Shown: piece by piece, positions 33,053 to 38,099 of the stretch
Position numbering within the stretch: position 1 is the stretch's first letter
How the letters are laid out: every line of letters starts with the position of its first letter
Assembly: GCA_944389195.1 (NCBI GenBank)
Contig: CALXLM010000012.1
Span: 1 to 64,000, forward strand
Reading direction: 5' to 3'
Origin: an uncultured Opitutales bacterium
GTDB lineage: Bacteria; Verrucomicrobiota; Verrucomicrobiia; Opitutales; Intestinicryptomonadaceae
DNA length: 64,000 bases
Position numbers and translations under genes: made by a program
Notes under the pieces: generated by a model
What the model was told of the DNA's origin: nothing
What the model saw: only the letters and a program-made list of their open reading frames with translations
Database searches by the model: none

Positions 33053-34411
33053 ATGAAAACCGTTAAATTATTTGCAATATTTGCCACTATATCAGCCTCG
33101 ACATTCGTCGGCGCTTCCACAGTCACAATTTCCGGTTCAAGCACAGAGCGAGTTCAAATCTCCGGATTCAATTCCGACGACGATGTCGTACTCGATTCTT
33201 CCATAAGCGCCAACTTTGCGGGCGCGGGCAAAACGATGAAATCTCTGTCGTCGGCCGGAGACGTGTCGATAGCCCTGCCCGGCAACAACTTATTGGGCAA
33301 TCTCATAGATATCAACGCGGCGAGCGGCACGGTTTCGGCGGTAGATATCGAAGGGGCATTTTCAATGAATTATTCGGTTATGGAGATAACCAATTCGCAC
33401 GCTGACAGTACAGCGGTAGCCACGGTTACTTTTGGTTCCCTGTCGCTTATTAGTGGATCTGTTTCACCGAACGACCAAATGCAATCTATTAAATTTGAGA
33501 ATGTCAACGCCGTCGTAAACACTGTTTCGGGAGCTACAATAGGAAACAACCACAATGACGGTAAAAACATTTCCACAATAAGTGTTGGACAAGGTGCGAA
33601 TGTGACATGGAACGGAGCGCAAGCTTACGGGCTCAGCGGGCGCCTGATTGTAAATGGCACTTTCACCACAAACGACACTCCCACGTTTGATCCGGGATCC
33701 CTTGTGACGATAGGCTCAGGCGGGACGATGAACCTCTCCACATTCGTAGTGTTCGGCGGGCTCGAAAGCATAGGCAATTTAAACCAGTTGACAGCCGACG
33801 GCATCGGTTTTAGGGGAGGCGTCGCCAACATATATGAAGACGCCGTTTGGAACGTGCGTGGCAAGCTCCACATTTATTCTGGAGCTGATGTTTCCATATA
33901 CAGCTCACATGTCACACTCTCCTATGCCACCGAGCCTCGCGTGCTTCTTGAAGGAGGAAAGCTTTCGCTCTACGCAAATCTTATCCCACAAGTAGAAATA
34001 GGAAGCAATATAAATATAGGGATACTCGGGACCCAGGAATCCACGCTCGTCGTTGGGGCTGACGTTTCGTTTGGATATATAAACCAGATGTCAAACGTAG
34101 CCACAAACATTATACTTAGTGACGGTGGTATCCTAAGGCTTGTTTATGATAACAACCCGCTTACACTTCAAAGTGAAGGTTTAAGAATTTTCAATTTTGA
34201 AGAAAACAAGGTTTATGTAGGATTAAACGTCACCCCAGGAGAACTCGGGTTCATAAAGCTCTATGCGGGCACCGATTTGGAGTCATTTATAGGGACAGCC
34301 AAACTTACCTCCGACGGCTGGCTTACTGCGATTCCGGAGCCCGCGGAGTGGGCTGCTGTATTGTGTGCGGCAGCTCTGGCTGCCATTTCCTTCAGGAAAA
34401 GAAAAAACTAA
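33053..34411 (+). CDS. PEP-CTERM surface protein, beta-rich
   Basis: A 452-residue exported protein with a signal peptide (MKTVKLFAIFATISASTFVG) and a C-terminal PEP-CTERM signal: IPEPAEWA, then a hydrophobic stretch (AVLCAAALAAISF) and RKRKN. The tail is nearly the same as in the protein at 7960-9711, so both probably pass through one exosortase pathway. The body is rich in Ser, Asn, Val and Gly in short strands (TVTISGSS, LIVNGTFTTND, LVTIGSGGTMNLS), as in beta-helical autotransporter-like passengers. A purine-rich AGAAGAAAG lies before the ATG. A strong terminator follows. Role unknown; such proteins are usually placed at the cell surface or in the matrix. Confidence 0.78.
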   Translation: MKTVKLFAIFATISASTFVGASTVTISGSSTERVQISGFNSDDDVVLDSSISANFAGAGKTMKSLSSAGDVSIALPGNNLLGNLIDINAASGTVSAVDIEGAFSMNYSVMEITNSHADSTAVATVTFGSLSLISGSVSPNDQMQSIKFENVNAVVNTVSGATIGNNHNDGKNISTISVGQGANVTWNGAQAYGLSGRLIVNGTFTTNDTPTFDPGSLVTIGSGGTMNLSTFVVFGGLESIGNLNQLTADGIGFRGGVANIYEDAVWNVRGKLHIYSGADVSIYSSHVTLSYATEPRVLLEGGKLSLYANLIPQVEIGSNINIGILGTQESTLVVGADVSFGYINQMSNVATNIILSDGGILRLVYDNNPLTLQSEGLRIFNFEENKVYVGLNVTPGELGFIKLYAGTDLESFIGTAKLTSDGWLTAIPEPAEWAAVLCAAALAAISFRKRKN

Positions 34412-34440: not shown

Positions 34441-34478
34441 AAACGGCCGGATTTCCGATGGGGGAACGGCCGTTTTTT
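34441..34478 (+). terminator. Intrinsic terminator after the second PEP-CTERM gene
   Basis: AAACGGCCG (34441-34449) pairs with CGGCCGTTT (34467-34475) and runs into a T tract; the 17-base loop has a small inner TTCC/GGAA pairing. Confidence 0.82.
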
Positions 34479-34669: not shown

Positions 34670-34930
34670 ATGAAAGTAAGGGTAAGGCATGAAGGCATAG
34701 TCGAGGAAACGGGTAAAGATGTAGTTTTTGCAATATCCGGAAAAAAGGTCAAAATCAACCGCGATTTCTTCAAACACGGGAAATTTAATTCGATAATACT
34801 GGAACGCGCCATAGCAGACAAGAACCGCTTAAAATGGAAGCTGTTGTTCCATATTCCGCCGAAAATCAAGCCTATATATAACCAGACTTCCATATATGAA
34901 CTTAGAGTTAAAGCAACAAATGGCTATTGA
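34670..34930 (+). CDS. Small basic protein heading the helicase-IbrAB cassette
   Basis: An 86-residue protein of unknown family. ATG 34670 follows AAGGCGG (34658-34664). The N-terminal half looks like a small beta structure (MKVRVRHEGIVEETGKDVVF, AISGKKVKINRDFF) and the rest is basic with several aromatic residues (RLKWKLLFHIPPKIKPIYNQ). The overall charge is strongly positive, which would suit nucleic-acid or protein binding, but this is only inference. The last 35 bases overlap the helicase gene in another frame, so the two are coupled. Its presence as the first gene suggests an accessory subunit of the cassette. It is absent from the named families known to me. Confidence 0.6.
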   Translation: MKVRVRHEGIVEETGKDVVFAISGKKVKINRDFFKHGKFNSIILERAIADKNRLKWKLLFHIPPKIKPIYNQTSIYELRVKATNGY

Positions 34931-36140
34931 GAAACTCTCGCAGCTAAAAGCCGGAGCTTTGTTTATGAAAATGGGCACGGGGAAAACAAAAGTTGCGTGC
35001 GATCTTATAAGGCTCAAACTGTCCAGCATAGACGCCGTTATTTGGATAGCGCCCGCCTCGCTTATAAAGTCGACCAAATATATCGGCGAAGTCAAGAAAT
35101 GGAGCGCGGAGTTTTTCGATAAAATCCTATTTTATACAATTGAGGGAATATCTCAAAGCGATTCAAAATACTTGGAGATGCGGCAGACCGCCTGTACCCG
35201 CCGGAATTTTTGCGTTGTCGATGAAAGCATATATATAAAAAACACGCGCGCCCTGCGCACAAAAAGGCTCATGCGTGACTACAATCTGTTCGATTTTAGG
35301 ATAATATTAAACGGAACCCCCATAACAAAAAGCCTCTTAGACCTCTATTCGCAGATAAATTTCCTTTCCCCGAACATACTAAAAATGACGGAACGCCAGT
35401 TCGCGGACAATTTTCTGGTTTATTTTTTCAACGGCATAGACCCGTATCCGTGGCGCAGGTGGTCAAAACCCGCCAACGTTGAAGCGCTTGTCGAAATCAT
35501 AAGGCCGTACATTTTCAACGCGGACTTTAAAACCGAATGTTCGTTGAAGCTATTAACCCGCAAATTCGAACTCGACGCCGAGGAGCGCAGAAAGTACTCG
35601 GCGTTTAAGGACAGGTATCTCGACGGAAAACTCTGCGTGCGATTCTTTTCCGTAGCGCAGAAATTCCAGAGGGCGTACACCGTTTCGTGTAAGGCCAAAT
35701 TTTGTGCGGCCATTTCGATAGTCGGCAGAATTCTTGCAAAAGGGGAAAAAGTGGTCATTTTCGTCAAATACATAGCCGAGGCGAAAATGCTCAACAAGGC
35801 CTTCGGAGGCCTGCTGTTCACCGGAGGTTATAAGGACGATCTTTTGCTGTTTGAAAGCGGGGAAAATGTTTTAATATGCACCTACGGAGTCGGCAGCGTA
35901 GGTTTGAACCTGCAATGCGCCAATAATATAATATTTTATTCGCAAACTTTCGACTACAAAGAAAAGGAGCAGGCCAAACACAGAGTGTTCAGAACCGGAC
36001 AGACAAAAACCGTGAGGATCTTCGACATGTGGGTGGATACCGGGTTGGAGGACATAATAAGATACAGCCTTTCAAGAAAAAGCGACCTTCTAAAAACAGT
36101 GGAACAATTCATAAGCGCGGAGGAGGCCAGAAGATTGTGA
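34896..36140 (+). CDS. SNF2-type superfamily 2 helicase/translocase
   Basis: A 414-residue DNA translocase-like ATPase. Motifs in order: I, MKMGTGKTKVAC (Lys30 region); II, FCVVDESIYIKN (residues 108-111 VDES, where SNF2 proteins have DEAH/DESH-type boxes); III, ILNGTPITKSLLDLYSQINF; V, LICTYGVGSVGLNLQCANN; VI, EQAKHRVFRTGQTKTV. This is the short SNF2 core seen in phages and plasmids, with no accessory domain or nuclease. ATG 34896 overlaps the small upstream gene; its stop overlaps the GTG of the IbrA-like gene. Likely role: moving on or opening duplex DNA for the IbrA/IbrB proteins. Genuine activity looks likely because the motif set is complete. Confidence 0.88.
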   Translation: MNLELKQQMAIEKLSQLKAGALFMKMGTGKTKVACDLIRLKLSSIDAVIWIAPASLIKSTKYIGEVKKWSAEFFDKILFYTIEGISQSDSKYLEMRQTACTRRNFCVVDESIYIKNTRALRTKRLMRDYNLFDFRIILNGTPITKSLLDLYSQINFLSPNILKMTERQFADNFLVYFFNGIDPYPWRRWSKPANVEALVEIIRPYIFNADFKTECSLKLLTRKFELDAEERRKYSAFKDRYLDGKLCVRFFSVAQKFQRAYTVSCKAKFCAAISIVGRILAKGEKVVIFVKYIAEAKMLNKAFGGLLFTGGYKDDLLLFESGENVLICTYGVGSVGLNLQCANNIIFYSQTFDYKEKEQAKHRVFRTGQTKTVRIFDMWVDTGLEDIIRYSLSRKSDLLKTVEQFISAEEARRL

Positions 36141-37423
36141 AAAAATACCTAAATAAAAACGTTTATGAAGCCGCCAACGAAAGAATCGACTTCGCGTTTA
36201 AAAATTTTTCGCGCATATATGTCTCCTTTTCCGGAGGCAAAGACAGCTCGGTCTTGTTGAATCTCGCTTTGGACTACATGCGGCGCAAAAAAATCAAAAA
36301 AAAGCTGGGGTTGCTTTTTGTGGATCTCGAGGCGCAATACGCCCTCACCATAAAATTCGTCGAAGAAATGCTGAAGGAAAACGCCCCCATGCTTGATACG
36401 TACTGGTGTTGTTTGCCGCTTAATTTGCGAAACTCTGTAAGCGTATTCGAGCCTTTTTGGACGTGTTGGGATCCCGAACAGAAAGACAAATGGGCGAGGG
36501 AATACCCCAAATTTACGGGTGTTATCGGAGAATCGAACAACCCGTTTGGATTTTTTAAAAAGAACATGGAGTTTGAGGAATTTGTGGAGAGGTTCGGCGA
36601 ATGGTATTCCGGAGGTGAAAAGACTGCATGCCTTGTGGGAATACGCTCCGACGAAAGCCTAAACAGGTATAGAACCATACGCAATAATTCAAAGGAAAAA
36701 TTAAACGGCAAAAACTGGAGCACTAAAATAAGCAAAAGCCTCTACAATTTGTATCCGATATACGACTGGGCAGTCAGGGATATATGGATAGCCAATTACC
36801 GAAACGCTTGGAAATACAACTGTCTATACGACCTCCTATACAAGGCAGGCGTCCCGCTATCCATGCAAAGGATATGCCAGCCATACGGCGACGACCAGCG
36901 GCGGGGACTGAACCTGTACCGCGCAATAGAGCCGGAAACATGGGTTAAGCTTGTAAACCGCGTAAGCGGCGCAAATTTCGGAAACATCTATTGCGGCACC
37001 AGATTGCTCGGATACAGAAAAGTCGCCCTTCCTCAAGGCCACACGTGGAAAAGCTACTGCAAATTGTTGTTGGCGACCCTTCCAAAGGAGCTATCAACCC
37101 ACTACAAAAAGAAATTTAAACGCTTTATGCTGTGGTGGTTTCGGAAGGGATCACCCGTTGACAACGAAAACTTGAGCCGCCTTCCGCCGGAAGCGGAAAT
37201 AACGGGCAGAAAATCGCCATATATGGAGCCAATTGTCAGGTATAAGAAAATTCCCGACCATCTCGACAACGGATTAGAGCAAAAAAAATTTGCGCCTACT
37301 TGGCGGAGAATGTGTATTTGCATTTTGAAAAACGACCACCTGTGCACGGGGCTGAGTTTTTCGCAAACAAAAAAACAGCATGAAAGAATGAAAATCCTGA
37401 TAGAAAAATACAGAAATTTATGA
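36137..37423 (+). CDS. IbrA-like PAPS-reductase-family protein (ATP pyrophosphatase fold)
   Basis: A 428-residue protein of the phosphoadenosine-phosphosulfate reductase superfamily with a DUF3440-like C-terminal part, resembling E. coli IbrA. GTG 36137 overlaps the helicase stop (GTGA) and has AGGAGG (36121-36126) in front; a longer upstream frame lies inside the helicase gene. The nucleotide loop is S32-GGKDS in SFSGGKDSSVLLNLALDY. Other features: LGLLFVDLEAQY, a Cys-Cys pair (DTYWCCLPLNLR), GIRSDESLNRYR and SLYNLYPIYDWAVRDIWI. Members of this fold activate substrates with ATP (adenylation), as in sulfate reduction, tRNA thiolation and DndC of DNA phosphorothioation. The IbrB-like gene overlaps its 3' end by 4 bases. 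The reaction here is unknown. Confidence 0.87.
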   Translation: MKKYLNKNVYEAANERIDFAFKNFSRIYVSFSGGKDSSVLLNLALDYMRRKKIKKKLGLLFVDLEAQYALTIKFVEEMLKENAPMLDTYWCCLPLNLRNSVSVFEPFWTCWDPEQKDKWAREYPKFTGVIGESNNPFGFFKKNMEFEEFVERFGEWYSGGEKTACLVGIRSDESLNRYRTIRNNSKEKLNGKNWSTKISKSLYNLYPIYDWAVRDIWIANYRNAWKYNCLYDLLYKAGVPLSMQRICQPYGDDQRRGLNLYRAIEPETWVKLVNRVSGANFGNIYCGTRLLGYRKVALPQGHTWKSYCKLLLATLPKELSTHYKKKFKRFMLWWFRKGSPVDNENLSRLPPEAEITGRKSPYMEPIVRYKKIPDHLDNGLEQKKFAPTWRRMCICILKNDHLCTGLSFSQTKKQHERMKILIEKYRNL

Positions 37424-37932
37424 CGAAAAAATCGAAAAGCCCGGTGTACGGCGTAAGGGCCGTGCCGCTTGAAAAAATACGCGCGAACGCCTATAATCCA
37501 AACAGGGTCGCTCCGCCCGAGATGAAGCTGCTGTACGATTCCATACGGGAGGACGGATACACACAGCCCATAGTCTGCTACCACATAAAGGAAGAGGACG
37601 TTTATGAAGTTGTGGACGGATTCCACAGGTACCGCATTATGCAGACACACGCAGACATCTACGAACGAGAGAACGGATGTATTCCGGTGGTTGTAATCGA
37701 CAGGCCCATCGGCGACAGAATGGCCTCAACGATACGCCACAACAGGGCAAGAGGCTCGCACGACGTCGATTTGATGAGCAACATCGTCGCCGAGCTGACC
37801 GAAATGGGCAAAACAAACGCGTGGATTTCCAAGCATCTCGGCATGAGCGCTGACGAAATATTGCGCCTCAAGCAAATAACGGGGATAGCCGCCCTGTTTA
37901 AGGATGAAGAATTCTCAAAAGCGTGGGAATAG
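37420..37932 (+). CDS. IbrB-like ParB/Srx-fold protein
   Basis: A 170-residue protein with an N-terminal ParB-like domain and a helical C-terminus. The domain shows the family order: AVPLEKIRANAYNPNRV, then LLYDSIREDGYTQPIV, then the nucleotide/catalytic motif VVDGFHRYR (residues 64-72) and ASTIRHNRARGSHDVD. ParB-fold enzymes are NTP-dependent (CTPase in ParB, kinase in free-serine kinases). The C-terminal part (TNAWISKHLGMSADEILRLK) resembles the helix-turn-helix after ParB domains. ATG 37420 overlaps the IbrA-like stop. In E. coli, ibrA and ibrB form a pair of this type that raises expression of eib genes; their biochemistry is not settled. Here they are linked to a helicase. Confidence 0.87.
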   Translation: MTKKSKSPVYGVRAVPLEKIRANAYNPNRVAPPEMKLLYDSIREDGYTQPIVCYHIKEEDVYEVVDGFHRYRIMQTHADIYERENGCIPVVVIDRPIGDRMASTIRHNRARGSHDVDLMSNIVAELTEMGKTNAWISKHLGMSADEILRLKQITGIAALFKDEEFSKAWE

Positions 37933-37976
37933 GCGCCTGCATGCCATCGGCGGCAAACGCTCTGGGGCGCCTTTTT
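37931..37976 (+). terminator. Possible terminator of the helicase-IbrAB cassette
   Basis: AGGCGCC (37931-37937) and GGCGCCT (37966-37972) can pair around a 28-base loop, followed by five T. It overlaps the ibrB-like stop codon. The long loop lowers confidence. Confidence 0.4.
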
Positions 37977-38099
37977 ACAGGCGCGCAAACCAAACGGCGT
38001 CTGTGGGACATTGACACAAGTCGCAATTGCCGTTTCCCGGGTGCGCAGGCGCGGAGCTCCCGGGATTTTAAACGGCCGCATTCTTCGCCGCGCTGTCGG

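Follow-up and report, generated by a model that had tools for sequence, protein, structure and literature searches.

Layout of the cassette

The analysed stretch of 64,000 nucleotides from an uncultured Opitutales bacterium (contig CALXLM010000012.1, hereafter the window) carries on its forward strand four genes, which encode a small protein of 86 amino acids (aa), an SNF2-family translocase of superfamily 2 (SF2), and the proteins IbrA and IbrB. The central result of this work concerns the small protein, which appears to belong to a family of adaptors joining unrelated N-terminal heads to a common C-terminal tail. The genes and associated features are located as follows.

34670..34930, + strand: gene of the candidate small adaptor protein, 86 aa (open reading frame, ORF; homologues in the corresponding position in five congeneric genomes and in phages)
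34841..34909, + strand: segment coding for the shared C-terminal tail, LLFHIPPKIKPIYNQTSIYELRV (alignment of 34 proteins; H61, P63 and L78 conserved)
34896..36140, + strand: SNF2-family (SF2) ATPase/translocase, 414 aa, core domains only (Pfam, phrog_62, motifs)
36137..37423, + strand: IbrA, 428 aa from the GTG at 36137 (Pfam, phrog_2302, fold match)
36230-36247, + strand: SGGKDS motif of IbrA
37420..37932, + strand: IbrB, 170 aa (Pfam ParB_N, phrog_2159, PDB profile matches)
37615-37629, + strand: DGFHR motif of IbrB
34441..34475, + strand: strong intrinsic terminator hairpin that belongs to the gene upstream and delimits the cassette (folding energy -20.3 kcal/mol; z -4.1 relative to shuffles)
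37932..37984, + strand: possible hairpin and T run downstream (RNA fold z -0.94, not better than shuffles)

All four ORFs are complete, and the consecutive genes overlap by 35, 4 and 4 bases, the exact coordinates agreeing with the overlaps given in a first-pass annotation made from the sequence.

The small protein and its shared tail

No match to the 86-aa protein was detected in Pfam or PHROG. In the AlphaFold2 model it consists of a small beta-barrel head (residues 1-57) with a predicted local distance difference test score (pLDDT) of about 91-95, followed by a disordered C-terminal tail (pLDDT 53-59). The head had no counterpart in the PDB at an E-value of 0.001 or better; the best match of a second look (Z 4.0 over 43 residues) indicates only a "small SH3/Hfq-like barrel", and uncharacterised small phage proteins resemble the head slightly better than solved structures do.

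The small genes found just upstream of the helicase gene in other loci form several clusters, the N-terminal parts of which display no BLAST similarity to each other, while most of the clusters end in a common tail, approximately hxxHxPxxhxPxxxNxIxxLKK, i.e., about HxP(x)9-18L. Residues H61, P63 and L78 of the window protein are invariant or nearly so in the 34 aligned proteins. A profile built solely from the tails of the commonest head type and searched at E < 0.01 against 10,529 ORFs of all retrieved loci matched 79 proteins, all of which (79/79) are encoded inside a cassette and on its strand. Tail proteins were present in 71 of the 76 viral helicase loci, eight loci having two, and in none of the 66 IbrAB loci devoid of the helicase, a distribution that links the tail to the helicase; the tail is retained even where IbrA is very divergent (e.g., in loci L127, L155, L193 and L194). 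The tail of the window protein is itself a divergent case (E 0.23 with its own genus excluded from the profile; 0.0011 for the congeneric locus L013), so that membership, weak by profile alone, is suggested by the position just upstream of the helicase gene taken together with the HxP(x)9-18L tail.

Tails borne by different heads have about half of their residues in common, with a low identity at third codon positions (about 0.14-0.5). Since third codon positions differ between the tails, it is the peptide, not the DNA, that is conserved and under selection, and DNA recombination was rejected as the source of the common tail. The overlap with the helicase gene was rejected as well, as in most loci the H.P part is encoded before the overlap begins and, where adaptors stand in tandem, a tail is found hundreds of bases from the helicase gene. 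The natural reading is that the small gene encodes an exchangeable adaptor, whose unrelated heads would share one tail docking on the helicase. The first-pass interpretation, which is partly supported by our data, overlooked the membership of the 86-aa protein in an adaptor family with a common tail. The neighbourhood of IbrAB with an SNF2 gene has already been noticed, without explanation (PMC5736727, PMC4541368); the family of adaptors combining a common tail with unrelated heads is new, in that no description of it was found in open-licence papers, and other literature may hold one.

Among the other heads, that of the small Listeria protein (124 aa) is followed by the C-terminal end THIPKKIEKDVIIENDLIR, and one type of phage head shows homology to the C-terminal part of Cas8c (Csd1, Cas11c region), near Csd1 positions 444-558. 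The Csd1 profile gave E-values of 2e-9 for L176, 5e-4 for L174 and 5e-3 for L192, only the first being above the Pfam cutoff, and the window protein had no Pfam match to Csd1/Cas11c. These Cas8c-C-terminus-like proteins, encoded on viral contigs (L174:5552-5986, L176:5634-6020, L192:1694-2107), are stand-alone, bear the cassette tail and have genes abutting that of the helicase; they represent a CRISPR subunit domain outside CRISPR. In loci L048, L049, L121, L155 and L206 the small adaptor upstream of the helicase is replaced by proteins of 338-406 aa, several of them with a CGH-type N-terminus and some with a tail-like end.

Conserved sites of the helicase, IbrA and IbrB

The helicase matched SNF2-rel_dom (7e-12) and Helicase_C (4e-7) of Pfam and phrog_62 (E 3e-62). 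It possesses Walker A, the DEx motif II, motifs III and VI and two RecA-like domains, as expected of an SNF2/SF2 translocase, and the motifs GTGKT, DES(I/L), NG(T)P and Q..R..RxGQ are conserved across its homologues, in line with the complete motif set that the first-pass annotation had read.

IbrA combines a PP-loop domain with SGGKDS (PAPS_reduct, PF01507, 4e-15, 56.8 bits) and a C-terminal DUF3440 (PF11922, 3.5e-53, 180.5 bits against a cutoff of 25), and matches over its full length phrog_2302 (E 1e-102), a family of the PHROG category "moron". Its predicted structure resembles FAD synthase, PAPS/APS reductase and the ATP sulfurylase CysD (Z 14-16 over 170-196 residues, at an identity of 15-21% only), the nearest folds being those of FMN adenylyltransferase, PAPS reductase and ATP sulfurylase. 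FAD synthase, PAPS reductase and CysD share with IbrA the fold and the nucleotide-site motifs, whereas the DUF3440 extension distinguishes IbrA from them. In an alignment of 40 IbrA proteins the motifs SGGKDS, GIRxxESxxR and PIxDWxxxDxW are conserved; invariant are SGGKDS (except one glycine), D63, E65, R170, E173, S174, R177, P207, D210, W211, D215 and W217. No cysteine is invariant among these proteins, the best columns reaching 32/40, which, considered together with the invariant nucleotide site, argues against a sulfur transfer of the Dnd type and for adenylyl chemistry.

In several loci, additional genes accompany those of IbrA and IbrB. An ectoine-synthase-like cupin is encoded between the two at L089:8308-8673, L042:9305-9694 and L043:8308-9204 (with Pfam matches in L089 and L042), and in the annotation of mycobacteriophage Gaia such a cupin is fused to ParB; this hints at the substrate of IbrAB. 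Proteins of about 135 aa adjoin IbrA at L049:8289-8705, L083:6603-6998 and L103:6586-6990, of which the L049 one matches a GNAT acetyltransferase family and the other two have no Pfam match.

IbrB matched ParB_N of Pfam (PF02195, E 1e-8) and phrog_2159 (E 3e-80). By profile it has the fold of the ParB/sulfiredoxin superfamily, with VDGFHRYR, HNRARGSH and a C-terminal helix-turn-helix (HTH), so that the motifs named for both IbrA and IbrB in the first-pass annotation are indeed present. The residues DGxHR, N108 and G112 are invariant, and the nearest PDB profiles are those of Noc/ParB and, more weakly, of the serine kinases SbnI and SerK; on these grounds, IbrB likely plays a role that uses a nucleoside triphosphate (NTP). 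It differs from a canonical partition ParB in having DGFHR in place of GERR, a length of 170 aa and no adjoining ParA gene.

Recurrence of the cassette

Six of the 14 genomes of the genus, counting that of the window, carry the cassette. The small gene, the helicase and IbrA are present in all of the other five, and IbrB in the four where the locus is not cut by a contig end. Gene order and the exact overlaps are identical across these loci despite differing surroundings, which are non-phage and include, e.g., purL, ilvC, ferritin-like and Na/H-exchanger genes, and all four frames are intact wherever contig ends do not cut them. Nonsynonymous divergence (dN) in the congeneric comparison amounts to 0.11-0.27 for the helicase, IbrA and IbrB, with synonymous divergence (dS) mostly saturated, and to 0.44-0.66 for the faster-evolving small gene. 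The four genes are thus held together under purifying selection.

The cassette also occurs in the Lactobacillus phage CR28, the S. thermophilus phage CHPC1062 and the Flavobacterium phage FCOV-F27 and, rearranged, in the Fusobacterium phage phiFN37; virulent Flavobacterium phages have it next to their genes for terminase and portal proteins. When viral contigs were searched with the profile of the helicase, 80 loci were obtained, and both IbrA and IbrB were found in 62 of the 62 having at least 2.5 kb of sequence downstream. Starting from bacterial IbrA, IbrB was found nearby in 80/80 loci, and the SNF2 helicase of the cassette type was absent from 66 of them; each scan returned its best 80 loci, so these fractions describe that sample. 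As IbrB accompanies IbrA in every locus and the helicase is missing from 66, IbrAB is the core, and the helicase and the small protein are an addition typical of phages. The repeated gene order in the congeners and the 62/62 viral loci show that the cassette recurs beyond chance. The view of the cassette as a unit of its own has therefore withstood the adjacency test: its genes commonly stand side by side, and it occurs in phages as well as at ordinary chromosomal sites.

In a quick tree of the helicase the sequences of the genus formed a single group (99*), whose neighbours are chromosomal loci of Alphaproteobacteria and two viral contigs. The helicase family of the tree is mostly viral, in agreement with the phage derivation that had been considered earlier. 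A small gene with an HTH of the XRE type often follows the cassette: it is present, mostly as the first gene, in 28 of the viral and phage loci examined (L125-L204, L007-L009, L040). The phage phiFN37 has, near its IbrAB-helicase cassette, a further ParB-like gene that overlaps one for a queuine tRNA-ribosyltransferase (L040:11168-12453).

Comparison with known systems

The closest parallel on a chromosome is found in Listeria, where the full four-gene set lies between pyrH and a methyltransferase gene. There lmo1309-1311 (listed in PMC5736727) encode IbrB, IbrA and the SNF2 protein, with the small gene upstream, in the same order as in the window and with ends overlapping or abutting, whereas the small protein has another head and the helicase and IbrA are only 33% and 43% identical to those of the window. 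In the open-licence literature no published account of the function of the Listeria cassette was found; papers on IbrA/IbrB, DUF3440, YbdN/YbdM/COG3969 and the Listeria locus gave annotation only, and the earlier statement that no functional description of the four-gene unit was known holds to that extent. In L. monocytogenes NZ_LR134403.1 (L205), the 407-kb "plasmid 6" contains frr and pyrH along with further core genes and looks like a piece of chromosome labelled as a plasmid.

In the Flavobacterium phages FCL-2/FCOV and in a chromosomal copy of F. columnare (PMC4541368), the small gene and those of the helicase, IbrB and IbrA also stand together. Unlike in the window, IbrB precedes IbrA, which is shorter (377 aa), and the region, in a virulent phage, is located between the genes for terminase and portal proteins. 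In E. coli, IbrA/IbrB and YbdN/YbdM (DUF3440 and ParB) likewise place both families side by side, but neither an SNF2 helicase nor a tail protein is known to be described there. E. coli IbrAB is known to activate the eib genes of prophages. Related work, by Sandt and Hill, is cited in PMC4541368, and ybdNM is regulated together with citrate genes (PMC9068703). The DpdA/DpdB and DndC/DndB pairs resemble the window in that a ParB-fold NTPase partners a nucleic-acid-modifying enzyme (PMC12839542, PMC10853773); they differ in the enzyme families (a tRNA-guanine transglycosylase and an Fe-S PP-loop sulfurtransferase, respectively) and have no known tail-bearing adaptor.

Genomic surroundings in the window

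As had been noted before, the flanking genes are unrelated to the cassette: on either side there are ordinary chromosomal genes, namely those of a di-haem peroxidase-like protein, a PEP-CTERM-like surface protein, a metal P-type ATPase, an aminotransferase and TsaE, and no phage gene or integrase was detected among the ten flanking proteins tested. A prophage remnant was rejected on account of these housekeeping and surface-protein genes. Of the terminators predicted on both sides, the upstream one stands and the downstream one does not, to judge from their z-values. The sole repeat around the cassette that could mark an insertion is a 10-base match belonging to the terminator stem; in the nearest relative, the blocks flanking the cassette sit on separate contigs, which makes a clean empty site unreadable there. 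In the window the cassette is immediately preceded by the surface-protein gene (33053-34411), which is not kept at this place in the relatives.

Possible function of the cassette

The explanation which we tentatively prefer, at rather less than even confidence, is that the cassette, phage-derived and now chromosomal, constitutes a machine modifying nucleic acids. The head of the adaptor would bind a target while the tail docks on the SNF2 translocase, and the latter would move along double-stranded DNA, bringing IbrA and IbrB to the target. IbrA might use ATP to adenylate a nucleic acid or something bound to it, or else to modify it via an adenylated intermediate, and IbrB might act as an NTP-driven switch or a kinase-like partner, similarly to the ParB-fold proteins DpdB (with DpdA) and DndB (with DndC). 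Phages could in this way mark their own DNA or alter its expression, and hosts keeping the cassette could use the same activity. In a bolder form, which we regard as doubtful, the machine would be modular: interchangeable targeting heads (small beta-barrels, Cas11c-like and others) would plug via one tail into an SNF2 motor delivering an adenylating IbrA/IbrB, which, if true, would represent a new class of modifiers with exchangeable targeting and an unfamiliar DNA or RNA product. The genes of IbrA and IbrB occur widely, in phages, plasmids and gut bacteria; the adaptor tail provides a first handle on the assembly, since one peptide accompanies several unrelated heads and a single motor. The targeting system would be naturally modular if target selection is the task of the heads; if IbrA modifies nucleic acid, many phages and certain core genomes, such as that of Listeria, would contain an undescribed modification.

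Several facts weigh against a nucleic-acid-modifying machine. Most chromosomal IbrAB pairs (the 66/80 loci) lack the helicase and the adaptor, which suggests a role of IbrAB that does not need delivery along DNA, and E. coli IbrAB is said to be an activator of the eib genes. The regulation of ybdNM is citrate-linked (PMC9068703). Some Alphaproteobacterial loci have helicase, IbrA and IbrB without a tail protein, and the tail is assigned to the helicase as its docking site by inference from co-occurrence. Finally, an amino-acid-like or other small substrate of IbrAB is possible, considering the ectoine-synthase-like and GNAT genes found between IbrA and IbrB elsewhere.

A serious rival, albeit a less probable one, is that the cassette is a co-activator of gene expression, in which IbrA/IbrB would switch phage, prophage or host genes as in the eib case, with the SNF2 protein as a RapA-like remodeller of RNA polymerase or the nucleoid and the adaptor as a tether to a promoter or to the polymerase. 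The family name and its sole published role, for which Sandt and Hill are cited in PMC4541368, agree with this possibility, as do the C-terminal HTH of IbrB, the common occurrence of stand-alone chromosomal IbrAB pairs and the surface-protein gene directly upstream of the window cassette. However, the adjoining gene is a different one in every congeneric locus, virulent phages have the cassette next to terminase and portal genes, and IbrA, with its conserved ATP-pyrophosphatase site, is more suggestive of chemistry than of plain DNA binding. In an anti-phage or superinfection-exclusion function, likewise a serious rival though somewhat unlikely, the adaptor would sense invading nucleic acid or phage proteins and the translocase would be triggered, whereupon a nucleotide, a tRNA or a protein would be poisoned by IbrAB. 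Its patchy, accessory distribution (6/14 genomes), the moron positions in phages matching the PHROG category, the fast-changing heads suited to target recognition and the participation of SNF2 helicases in several defence systems are all consistent with it. On the other hand, PADLOC recognized no matching defence system (Zorya, Dpd, DISARM, BREX) and gave only partial cross-hits by fold of the helicase and PAPS proteins to models of about 600-1300 aa, with no match for the 86-aa protein or IbrB, so that the defence role proposed earlier is so far not supported. Moreover, neither a nuclease nor another evident effector is present in the cassette, no defence genes were found among the ten congeneric-locus neighbours tested, and occurrence in virulent phages would be less expected.

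Thiolation, another suggestion of the first-pass annotation, fares far worse. A sulfur modification of DNA of the Dnd/Ssp type with IbrA as a DndC-like sulfurtransferase could be proposed from the common PP-loop fold (TIGR03183 E 9e-5; PADLOC DndC 8e-8) and the ParB-fold partner, as in DndB; it is very improbable, as DndC needs three cysteines for its 4Fe-4S cluster in addition to a sulfur-accepting dyad (PMC10853773), a set that IbrA, with its variable cysteine columns, does not have. The DndD ABC ATPase, DndE and a cysteine desulfurase are likewise absent from the four cassette genes and the flanking genes tested. Hardly credible, too, is a decaying, functionless fragment of a prophage: the phage origin of the family and the lack of further phage genes nearby are what such a relic would leave, but the frames are intact, dN is far from the mostly saturated dS in three genes, and the exact overlaps are repeated in different surroundings.

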